Shown: piece by piece, positions 11,270 to 14,174 of the stretch
Position numbering within the stretch: the stretch's first letter is position 1
How the letters are laid out: each line of letters starts with the position of its first letter
DNA from: Candidatus Omnitrophota bacterium
Lineage (GTDB): Bacteria; Omnitrophota; Gorgyraeia; Zapsychrales; Fredricksoniimonadaceae
NCBI GenBank assembly: GCA_002753745.1
Contig: PEAR01000007.1
Location: forward strand, 1 to 36,704
Length of the DNA stretch: 36,704 bases
Reading direction: 5' to 3'
Made by a program: the position numbers and the translations under genes
The notes under the pieces: model-generated
What the model was told of the DNA's origin: nothing
What the model saw: the letters and a program-made list of their open reading frames with translations, nothing else
Database searches by the model: none

Positions 11270-12172
11270 ATGGTATCTCAAGGGAAAAATAAGTCTTTAT
11301 CGCCGGTGGCGATCGTTCTTTGGGTTGTCGTGGCTGTTGTTTGCATCCAGGGTTTCTTTTTCTTTCAGAAACGATTAGCACCTGGAGAGACAAAAAAGTC
11401 TCAACAAACAACGCCTGTCAAGCCGGTCAAGAAAGCACCTAAGACAGCGCCTGAGAAGCCTGTTGTTTATAAAAAAGGAGCTGCTCCTCTTGGACGAATT
11501 GCCATTGTCATTGATGATTGGGGGTATAATAATTCCCATTGTAAATATTTAGACCAGATGACGGAGCCGGCTGGGATTGCAATTCTTCCTGGGTTGCCAT
11601 ATTCCAGGGATATTATTCAGTGCGCGGCCGAGAAAGGAAAGCAACCCATGCTGCATTTACCGCTGGAGCCCCATTCTCTCAAGGAGATATATACGAAAGG
11701 CTATGTGTTGACGACTCAAATGGGGGCAGCTGAACTTAAATCGATAACTGTTAAGATCATGGATGAGATGAAGGGGGTCGTGGGTGTTAACAATCATACA
11801 GGGTCAAAAGGCAGCGAGAGCGAGCTTGTGATGACGACCGTTCTTTCTGAGACGAGAAAGCGTGGACTGTTTTTTGTGGATAGTGTTACTTCAGACCGTA
11901 CGGTTGGAGGACAGGTGGCAGCAAAACTCAAAATGCATATCGCTAAACGGGATGTCTTTTTGGACAATAAGAATGAACGAGCAGCCATCGAACATCAATT
12001 CGCTGAAGTGGCACAGATTGCCCGTATAAATGGCTTTGCTTTGGCGATAGGACATGACCGGGCGTTAAGTTTACAAATCATCATTGAACAGATGAAGAAA
12101 CTGTCCGAACAGGGGTACGAGTTCGTGACGGTTCCGGATTATATTAAAAAAAATGAATATCCTCGGTTTTGA
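11270..12172 (+). CDS. Divergent polysaccharide deacetylase (YibQ family)
   Basis: A 300-aa membrane-anchored protein with one N-terminal helix (about residues 12-32) and a Lys/Pro-rich linker to residue 70. The divergent deacetylase domain then opens with GRIAIVIDDWGYN and continues with AILPGLPYS, MLHLPLEPH, NNHTGSKGSES and GLFFVDSVTS. These match the YibQ/DUF610 pattern of Asp and His residues used for metal binding in NodB-like enzymes. The substrate is unknown; a role in peptidoglycan or periplasmic glycan trimming is inferred from family context and from Ctp upstream. GGAG lies upstream of the ATG. The end overlaps tsaD by 20 bases. Confidence 0.9.
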   Translation: MVSQGKNKSLSPVAIVLWVVVAVVCIQGFFFFQKRLAPGETKKSQQTTPVKPVKKAPKTAPEKPVVYKKGAAPLGRIAIVIDDWGYNNSHCKYLDQMTEPAGIAILPGLPYSRDIIQCAAEKGKQPMLHLPLEPHSLKEIYTKGYVLTTQMGAAELKSITVKIMDEMKGVVGVNNHTGSKGSESELVMTTVLSETRKRGLFFVDSVTSDRTVGGQVAAKLKMHIAKRDVFLDNKNERAAIEHQFAEVAQIARINGFALAIGHDRALSLQIIIEQMKKLSEQGYEFVTVPDYIKKNEYPRF

Positions 12173-13118
12173 ATCATCTTGTGATGAGACCTCCGCCAGC
12201 GTTGTTTGCAACGGCCGAGAGGTGCTCTCAAATGTTGTGGCAACGAGTCTCAAAGACCATCAGAAATATGGTGGAATCATTCCCGAGATCGCTTCGCGTC
12301 GTCAGCTTGAATATATAAATATCGTTACAGCACAAGCTCTGACAACGGCGGGATTATCTTTGAAGGATGTCGATGCTGTTGCGGTAACTGAAGCCCCTGG
12401 CCTTATCGGGTCATTGGTTGTCGGGCGCTCGTTCGCGCATTCACTTAGCTTTGCTTTGCAGCGCCCTTTGGTCAAAGTCAATCACATCGAAGCCCACGTC
12501 TATGCGGGCTATCTGACTGAAAAGAATGAAAAGGATCGCGATCTTCTCGGTGAGTTTCTTTTGCCTGCTGTAGGCCTTGTTGTTTCTGGCGGCCATTCCA
12601 GTCTTTTTTATATAAAGGATTTTAGTTCTTTTCGCGTTTTCGGCCAGACCCGTGATGACGCCGCCGGCGAGGCTTATGACAAGGTTGCTCGTATTTTAGA
12701 CCTCGGTTATCCCGGTGGGCCGGTTATTGATAAGCTGTCTCAGCAGGTTAAAGATAACGACATTAAGTTCCCGTGCGCCCCATTGGAAGGAACAGATGAT
12801 TTTAGTTTTAGCGGCTTAAAAACTTCAGTTTTATATTACACCCAGCGTAATGCCAAGATCGGTTTCTCTGTAGAGAAAGTTGCCAATGCTTTCCAGGAGA
12901 GTGTGGTCAATGTACTCGTGCGTAAATCAATTGAGGCTTGTCTTAAGAAGAAAGTTTTTTCCCTTCTGGTGGGAGGTGGGGTGGCGGCTAATTCCACACT
13001 GCGTGCTCGCCTCTCTGAAAGCGCGGCGGCACGGGGAATAAAAGTCCGGTTCCCTTCTTTGCCACTGTGTATGGATAACGCGGCTATGGTTGCGGGCCTT
13101 GCCTATCATTTATTATAA
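12153..13118 (+). CDS. tsaD: tRNA N6-threonylcarbamoyladenosine transferase TsaD
   Basis: Transfers the threonylcarbamoyl group to A37 of ANN-decoding tRNAs. The 321-aa protein starts with the ASKHA signature ILGFESSCDETSASVV. It contains the iron-binding HIEAH (111-115), SGGHSSLFY, GEAYDKVARILDLGYPGGP, FSFSGLKTSV and the ATP-binding GGGVAANSTLR, ending with the MDNAAM motif. The first ATG of the family alignment is at 12153, inside the end of the deacetylase gene. It is the last gene before an apparent new promoter at 13142. Confidence 0.97.
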   Translation: MNILGFESSCDETSASVVCNGREVLSNVVATSLKDHQKYGGIIPEIASRRQLEYINIVTAQALTTAGLSLKDVDAVAVTEAPGLIGSLVVGRSFAHSLSFALQRPLVKVNHIEAHVYAGYLTEKNEKDRDLLGEFLLPAVGLVVSGGHSSLFYIKDFSSFRVFGQTRDDAAGEAYDKVARILDLGYPGGPVIDKLSQQVKDNDIKFPCAPLEGTDDFSFSGLKTSVLYYTQRNAKIGFSVEKVANAFQESVVNVLVRKSIEACLKKKVFSLLVGGGVAANSTLRARLSESAAARGIKVRFPSLPLCMDNAAMVAGLAYHLL

Positions 13119-13217: not shown

Positions 13218-13748
13218 ATGGCTTTTGGTGAAAAGAAACCCCAGCGTATCGAACCAGTTTCAAAGACTATTGAGATTAATGCTGAGATGCATGGCACTTT
13301 ATCTTTTAAGGAACTCGTCGATCTTAAGATCAATGGGCAGTTCACGGGCAGTTTGGATGTTCGTGGGACCTTAACCGTAGGCGGACGTGCCGAGGTCGAG
13401 GCGGATATCAGCGGTGATAATGTGGTGATCGCAGGCAAGGTCAAAGGGAATGTTACTGTTTCCAAGATCCTGACATTATTACCTACGGCAGTCCTGATCG
13501 GCAATATAAATGCGCCAAAGTTGAACATTGTCGAGGGAGCGATCTTTCAGGGGAATTGCCAGATGTCTCCGACAGAGTCCAATGAATGGATGAATATCAA
13601 GGAACTGGCGGTTTACCTTGAACTTGATGAAGGGTCGATCATTGAGCTGGTCCGTTCGGGAAAGATCCCTGTTGTTCGTGAGGGTGATATTCTTAAATTT
13701 GAACGAGCCCAGATCGACGGTTGGGCTGCTGCCGGGATGGTGAAATGA
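13218..13748 (+). CDS. Bactofilin fused to an excisionase-type (MerR-like) helix-turn-helix
   Basis: A 176-aa protein. Residues about 15-112 are a bactofilin domain: short beta repeats with the pattern GxxxGxLxVxGxLxVGGRAEVEADISGDNVVIAGKVKGNVT. This family polymerises into membrane-associated filaments. Residues about 124-172 (EWMNIKELAVYLELDEGSIIELVRSGKIPVVREGDILKFERAQIDGW) match the HTH_17/excisionase-type fold, normally a DNA-binding winged helix. The start is ATG 13218, seven bases after a clean GAGGAG (13205-13210); an upstream in-frame ATG at 13197 lacks such a site. Ordinary bactofilins carry short disordered tails, so the C-terminal HTH is unusual. The next gene overlaps by four bases and carries the same HTH type. 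DNA or chromosome tethering is inferred only. Confidence 0.88.
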   Translation: MAFGEKKPQRIEPVSKTIEINAEMHGTLSFKELVDLKINGQFTGSLDVRGTLTVGGRAEVEADISGDNVVIAGKVKGNVTVSKILTLLPTAVLIGNINAPKLNIVEGAIFQGNCQMSPTESNEWMNIKELAVYLELDEGSIIELVRSGKIPVVREGDILKFERAQIDGWAAAGMVK

Positions 13749-14050
13749 GCTTGAGCCCTTATGTAACAGTCAGAGAGGCGGCACAGATCCTCGGTTTGCC
13801 CGAGGGGAAGGTGATGGGGCTAGTCGAAGAGAAGAAACTGATGGCCTATCGCATTGCTGACCAGTATCTGCGTTTAAAACGTTCCGATATCCTTTCTTTG
13901 CGTGATTCCGGGAATGTCGTCGCTGAAACGGTGAAGTTCCCTTATTCAGCGGCGGAAAGGCTGCGCGATTTCTTTGTCTATAACGATTTTTACCTTCTTG
14001 CTGCCGGCATCATCTGTGTGCTTCTTGGCATCGTTTTCTTCTTACCTTGA
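13745..14050 (+). CDS. Excisionase-type helix-turn-helix protein with C-terminal membrane helix
   Basis: A 101-aa protein. Residues about 5-55 (YVTVREAAQILGLPEGKVMGLVEEKKLMAYRIADQYLRLKRSDILSL) form an excisionase/MerR-like DNA-binding domain. Residues about 80-100 (YLLAAGIICVLLGIVFFLP) form a single hydrophobic helix ending at the C-terminus, so the HTH should face the cytoplasm at the membrane. The ATG overlaps the bactofilin stop as ATGA. Pairing with a bactofilin that bears the same domain suggests the two proteins act together. No known named family was recognised for the full architecture. Confidence 0.85.
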   Translation: MSLSPYVTVREAAQILGLPEGKVMGLVEEKKLMAYRIADQYLRLKRSDILSLRDSGNVVAETVKFPYSAAERLRDFFVYNDFYLLAAGIICVLLGIVFFLP

Positions 14051-14100: not shown

Positions 14101-14174
14101 GGCGAGGTAGCTCAGTTGGCTAGAGCATACGGTTCATACCCGTACGGTCGAGAGTTCGAATCTCTCCTTCGCCA
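14101..14174 (+). tRNA. tRNA-Met (CAT), elongator type
   Basis: A 74-base cloverleaf. The acceptor stem is GGCGAGG with CTTCGCC, the D-arm is GCTC...GAGC, and the anticodon stem TACGG/CCGTA carries loop TTCATAC. The T-arm is GAGAG/CTCTC. Base 1 pairs with base 72 and the anticodon stem lacks the three G-C pairs of initiators. The loop TTCATAC is unlike the usual tRNA-Ile2 loop. CCA is not encoded. Confidence 0.95.

Follow-up and report, generated by a model that had tools for sequence, protein, structure and literature searches.

A bactofilin with a C-terminal winged helix and its tail-anchored helix-turn-helix neighbor: a candidate membrane-attachment module of the Omnitrophota

A set of two adjacent genes is carried by nearly every Omnitrophota species, the first coding for a bactofilin with a C-terminal helix-turn-helix (HTH) domain (bactofilin-HTH, with its domain HTH1) and the second for a small HTH protein with a single membrane helix (HTH-TM, with its domain HTH2). 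These are very small (about 0.2 µm) and almost entirely uncultured bacteria. The reading that we favor, with moderate confidence, is that the set would serve to attach the phylum's bactofilin to the membrane, with HTH-TM fixing the filaments through docking between HTH1 and HTH2. A fuller version is put forward more tentatively: a phylum-wide coupler of membrane and cytoskeleton, where an acidic pseudo-DNA-binding domain docks on the wing of an HTH receptor, and the FNDFY motif of this receptor leads to a second envelope function that does not depend on bactofilin. What is new here is the attachment part of an otherwise bactofilin-type system, and no published description of it was found. The starting point is a stretch of 36,704 nucleotides from a Candidatus Omnitrophota bacterium (the window), where both genes and all their features lie on the forward (+) strand.

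The bactofilin-HTH gene (13218 to 13748) codes for 176 amino acids and has a GAGGAG ribosome-binding site just 5′ of its ATG at 13218. The N-terminus of the protein (MAFGEKKPQRIE, 13218 to 13253), hydrophobic and then basic, is a predicted membrane-targeting peptide; as a pattern of residues only, this MTS-like arrangement (hydrophobic at 2–5, at least two K/R in 2–12) is found in 165 of 204 bactofilin-HTH homologs. The bactofilin domain follows (13269 to 13562; PF04519 at residues 18–115, E = 1e-23, 83.9 bits for a cut-off of 27.9), and AlphaFold2 (AF2) models it as a right-handed β-helix with pLDDT of about 90, the mean for the whole protein being 81. The top matches of this core in Foldseek and hmmsearch are 6rib, 6ria, and 2n3d, and its nearest solved structures in Foldseek are the Thermus and Caulobacter bactofilins; the best Foldseek match, 6rib, has a TM-score of 0.78 by target length with an E-value of only 1.5e-3. 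After the β-helix, the model continues with the winged helix of HTH1 (13587 to 13733), composed of helices at residues 127–134 and 138–147, strands at 153–155 and 158–162, and a helix at 163–171. HTH1 matches HTH_17 (PF12728) at residues 124–172 with 28.5 bits (cut-off 27), and its recognition helix (ELDEGSIIELVRSG) is acidic.

The HTH-TM gene (13745 to 14050) overlaps the first by the four bases of an ATGA start/stop (13745 to 13748) and codes for a tail-anchored protein of 101 amino acids. Its HTH2 (13760 to 13900; PF12728 at residues 6–52, 29.4 bits for the same cut-off of 27) is modeled with helices at 9–16 and 20–28, strands at 34–37 and 41–45, and a helix at 46–55, the wing residues A34-Y35-R36 being the proposed docking surface for HTH1. 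In the AF2 model (mean pLDDT 82) this winged helix is followed by a juxtamembrane helix (69–79) and by the single transmembrane helix (81–99; 13985 to 14041), which is also apparent from hydropathy. The tail after it is about two residues long in the window protein and its close homologs, and hydropathy reveals no second TM-like segment in 210 homologs. The juxtamembrane helix and signature motif (13949 to 13996) read DFFVYNDFYL in the window, for a phylum consensus of DFFYFNDFYI. This FNDFY segment is the best-conserved part of HTH-TM among the 210 homologs, above its HTH (D75 90%, F76 93%, N80 92%, D81 94%, F82 97%, Y83 100%). The nearest solved structures for both HTHs in Foldseek are Xis, RdfS, BldC, and RacA. 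Because Foldseek searches with the full models gave no match below E = 0.001, the fold assignments rest jointly on probability, TM-score, and Pfam. The first-pass annotation had described a bactofilin with a C-terminal HTH and an overlapping membrane HTH gene, which is borne out by the coordinates, the Pfam domains, the ATGA overlap, and the TM segment; the AF2 models also agree with the winged-helix fold in both proteins. NCBIfam matches to MAD1 (defence) and MamR (magnetosome) lie far under the cut-off and were discarded.

The two genes systematically co-occur. Within the window's family, HTH-TM is present in 28 of 32 genomes, and bactofilin-HTH lies immediately upstream of it at all 29 loci, with the ATGA overlap at most of them. 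At E ≤ 1e-5, HTH-TM is found in 254 and bactofilin-HTH in 268 of 285 Omnitrophota genomes, the scores of the latter being bimodal: full fusions reach E ≤ 2e-26, whereas the weak matches stay at E ≥ 4e-13. When the two survey tables are compared by eye, 238 genomes have both genes, none has a full fusion without HTH-TM, 16 have HTH-TM without a full fusion, and 31 have neither, this joint absence being inflated by the incompleteness of MAGs. A full fusion is present at 274 of the 278 loci inspected, and in each case the next gene downstream is HTH-TM (median spacing of 10 nt, four-base overlap in 23%); these loci correspond to 210 non-redundant pairs. The four remaining loci are L102, at a contig edge, L083, L141, and L142. 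The coupling of the two genes, which the first-pass annotation had taken for a module, therefore holds across genomes, and this conservation rules out chance neighbors or a quirk of one lineage. A search with PF04519 in eight fusion-bearing genomes, including several near-closed ones (G103, G105, G239, G273, and G109), gives the fusion as the only bactofilin over the cut-off in each of the eight. In a scan of GTDB with HTH-TM, the best 80 of 223 matches have Omnitrophota-type titles, except for three records labeled Elusimicrobia, Planctomycetales, or only "bacterium". The records labeled Elusimicrobia (L041) and Planctomycetales (L083) carry the Omnitrophota locus, and the label of L041 looks wrong. 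Genome G017 has, besides its native pair, a second one on a separate contig (L004/L032, G017:C10), with an HTH-TM that shares 86% identity with that of the window; this is probably a binning contamination.

The 16 genomes that keep a match to HTH-TM and miss the full fusion are of several kinds. In G282 and G178, HTH-TM begins at a contig edge, and hence the assembly may simply stop short of the fusion. No bactofilin was detected anywhere in the genome in f12 (six genomes), f6 (four), G041, G171, G200, and L083, several of which are 97–99% complete; in total, HTH-TM is kept in 13–14 genomes without any detected bactofilin. In f12 and L083 it lies directly after tsaD, at the place expected for the fusion, and in G200 tsaD is close upstream. 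G060 has a weak match to HTH-TM and a bactofilin-like frame broken by an in-frame TAG (L312, G060:C8), possibly a decaying bactofilin. The whole family f34, with eight genomes (G177, G190, G218, G252, G268, G276, G291, and G297), has lost HTH-TM as well as every bactofilin and retains MreB. Dependence between the two genes is one-way, since the full fusion is found only beside HTH-TM, and HTH-TM can exist without the fusion. Because HTH-TM persists in genomes that have no bactofilin, anchoring bactofilin cannot be its sole function.

Bactofilins polymerize without nucleotides, and their N-terminal peptide (global consensus MFSKKKK) binds membranes weakly, working stably only in multivalent form; the bitopic client PbpC can replace this membrane-targeting sequence (PMC12448750). 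In the module that we propose, the bactofilin core would polymerize into a filament showing MTS-like N-termini and an array of HTH1 domains. HTH1 keeps its winged-helix fold and would bind a protein, since its former DNA-recognition face is acidic, and the most likely partner for this face would be the wing of HTH2 on the co-encoded, tail-anchored HTH-TM. The resulting multivalent HTH–HTH bond would tie the filaments to the inner membrane and would also link them to whatever the FNDFY juxtamembrane segment contacts, perhaps contributing to cell shape or to the placement of growth sites. The FNDFY motif probably serves the second, bactofilin-independent job of HTH-TM. The MTS-like N-terminus may by itself suffice for membrane binding.

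Besides the one-way co-occurrence, two comparisons bear on the docking of HTH1 on HTH2. Mean-field DCA was run on the 210 natural pairs, equivalent to about 162 effective sequences. The five top inter-protein pairs of positions score 1.74–1.88; the best control scores are 1.07–1.51 in ten nearest-neighbor swaps, added because global shuffling is too weak a control by itself, and 1.33–1.58 in five global shuffles of that run. Pairs between HTH1 and HTH2 account for nine of the top 20 inter-protein pairs, and for three to seven in the swaps. Covariation is no more than suggestive of a contact between the two domains, because the swaps also erase shared recent history and some of the top covarying pairs fall in the bactofilin core. 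The second comparison sets 13 HTH-TM proteins from bactofilin-less genomes, which amount to about five independent lineages with f12 supplying six of the 13, against the paired proteins. The most relaxed HTH2 positions without bactofilin are in the first strand of the wing: A34 deviates in 7/13, Y35 in 8/13, and R/K36 in 8/13. Y35 is retained in f6 and L083 despite the loss of bactofilin. At Phe79, Asp81, Phe82, and Tyr83 none of the 13 deviates, and position 80 stays N/Y. The wing of HTH2 is basic, with a charge of +4 in the window protein, as opposed to the acidic HTH1.

The same data leave some room for a different, rather unlikely, arrangement, in which HTH1 binds another protein, such as a cell-wall enzyme or a polarity factor, HTH-TM is a separate receptor working through FNDFY, and the genes adjoin because they serve one assembly. 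The persistence of HTH-TM in genomes without detected bactofilin would be expected of such a receptor, as would the higher conservation of the juxtamembrane motif than of the HTH, and the bactofilins of Myxococcus and Asticcacaulis do bind other partners by their C-termini (PMC5703909, PMC12364344). However, bactofilin-HTH is never seen without HTH-TM in the 285 genomes, and both the covariation of HTH1 with HTH2 and the relaxation of the wing argue for a partnership between the two domains.

That a domain of this kind can bind a protein has a solved precedent in CbpM, a protein of MerR fold that has no DNA-contact Tyr/Arg and binds the J-domain of CbpA, encoded in the same operon (PMC4063869). 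CbpM resembles the HTHs of the pair in its MerR/HTH_17 fold, in the loss of these residues, in binding a protein, and in being encoded beside its partner. It differs from them in that it involves no filament or membrane anchor, whereas both partners carry such HTHs in the Omnitrophota pair; also, CbpM has a coiled-coil dimerization helix, which HTH-TM lacks, the helix after HTH2 running into the TM. There is no J-domain protein among the annotated conserved neighbors of the pair. The precedent also makes conceivable, if improbable, that HTH-TM is a negative regulator, binding HTH1 at the membrane and so blocking or timing the polymerization of bactofilin, as in CbpM/CbpA. Bactofilin-HTH being present only where HTH-TM is present would fit this; the sequences offer nothing to tell inhibition from anchoring, but an HTH-TM that outlives bactofilin suggests more than its restraint.

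The first-pass annotation had proposed that the pair ties DNA, or another HTH partner, to a filament at the membrane. The HTH partner is supported by the comparisons above, if with a contact that is putative, and the DNA is not. As controls we took 25 HTH_17 domains other than those of the pair, encoded in genomes of the window's own family and order. HTH1 (WMNIKELAVYLELDEGSIIELVRSGKIPVVREGDILKFERAQIDGWAAA) is clearly a relative of the commonest of these (e.g., LMTIDEVAGYLRVKKRTVYDWVKKGKIPAMKTVGLWRFRRDRIDQWLES). The recognition helix has a mean net charge of −2.92 in HTH1 (n = 210, from −5 to −1), −1.66 in HTH2, and +2.68 in controls, with a Mann-Whitney p of 6e-20 for HTH1; the HTH1 helix is acidic in all 210 homologs (α2 charge of −3 in the window protein). 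Over the whole domain the charges are −3.3, +0.4, and +4.5, respectively. The Thr of controls (84%) is replaced by S/V/E/K in HTH1 and by E/K in HTH2, and their Tyr (52%) by L/M/E and M/I, so that the DNA-contact Thr, Tyr, and Lys/Arg are gone from HTH1 and mostly lost from HTH2. Such a loss among homologs was one of the findings that the first-pass annotation had named as refuting its reading, and it applies to HTH1 in full and to HTH2 in large part. Hence, both domains have the profile and the winged-helix fold of the HTH_17 family and lack its basic recognition helix with Thr/Tyr contacts. Together with the CbpM analogy, this suggests that both HTHs turned into protein-docking modules. A tether of the chromosome to the membrane filament, by HTH1 and/or HTH2 in the manner of RacA or of a built-in PadC, would agree with folds resembling the DNA-binding domains of Xis, BldC, and RacA and with the basic wing of HTH2, but it is very improbable given the charges and the lost contacts, and was rejected as the lead reading. 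A standalone short HTH_17 protein (L289, L284–L290; LMTIDEVAxYLRVKKRTVYDWVKKGKIPA...), basic and nearly identical in several genomes of family f1, is a plausible ancestor or paralog of HTH1.

Other known systems resemble the pair in part. RodZ works in a similar way, in that its one membrane helix bears a small cytoplasmic HTH next to a filament of the cytoskeleton, MreB. In contrast to RodZ, HTH-TM has an HTH_17, a C-terminal TM, and no periplasmic domain, and the filament is a bactofilin, MreB being present separately. A RodZ-type HTH_25 finds no match in HTH-TM, for which HTH_17 and Rv2175c_wHTH are the only Pfam matches. RacA, which connects DNA to the cell pole, has a similar HTH fold, but the Omnitrophota HTHs lack the DNA-binding residues, and the RacA system has no bactofilin. 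Bactofilins of the Caulobacter BacA type share the β-helix core, the MTS-like N-terminus, and a membrane client that can assist membrane binding, in their case PbpC (PMC12448750); to these the Omnitrophota protein adds a C-terminal winged helix and, in every fusion genome, a small tail-anchored HTH partner. In the BacNOP-PadC-ParA system of Myxococcus, a bactofilin C-terminus also recruits an adaptor; there, PadC is a soluble ParB-like DNA-binding adaptor and the bactofilin C-terminus is disordered, unlike HTH1 (PMC5703909).

A full-text search, in which subscription journals are poorly covered, found no paper joining bactofilin and Omnitrophota; judged by title and abstract, the papers retrieved for bactofilin together with helix-turn-helix describe no such fusion; and the main text of a survey of Omnitrophota (PMC10066038) mentions neither bactofilin nor MreB. 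How bactofilins are delivered to membranes and choose their clients is an open question, worked on in a handful of model species. The Omnitrophota appear to share a single answer across their phylum, for which the partner is defined, residues of the interface can be proposed, and lineages that naturally lost a partner exist. If the proposed docking is true, a transcription-factor fold would have given rise to an adhesive made of two different HTHs. Annotations as "excisionase-family DNA-binding" in Omnitrophota genomes may mark proteins that do not bind DNA.

The pair has a conserved place in the genome. Gene order is gatA, gatB, a PDZ S41 protease (CtpA type), a divergent polysaccharide deacetylase, tsaD, and the pair. 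In the window, tsaD (12153 to 13118, forward strand, Pfam TsaD) lies upstream, outside the module, and marks the syntenic place, and it is upstream of the pair in 77 of the loci examined. An MgtC-family membrane gene stands between tsaD and bactofilin in 48 loci (e.g., L147, L042, and L091) and is absent from that place in the window. gatAB and tsaD are housekeeping genes, and the presence of the protease and the deacetylase perhaps points to a function in the envelope. Directly 3′ of the pair, the window has a tRNA-Met (CAT) at 14101–14174. In f12 (L141 and L142), HTH-TM lies between tsaD and polA, and in other lineages genes of C1 metabolism (AIRC-like, FmdE, CdhD, and RACo-type) are found downstream of the pair.
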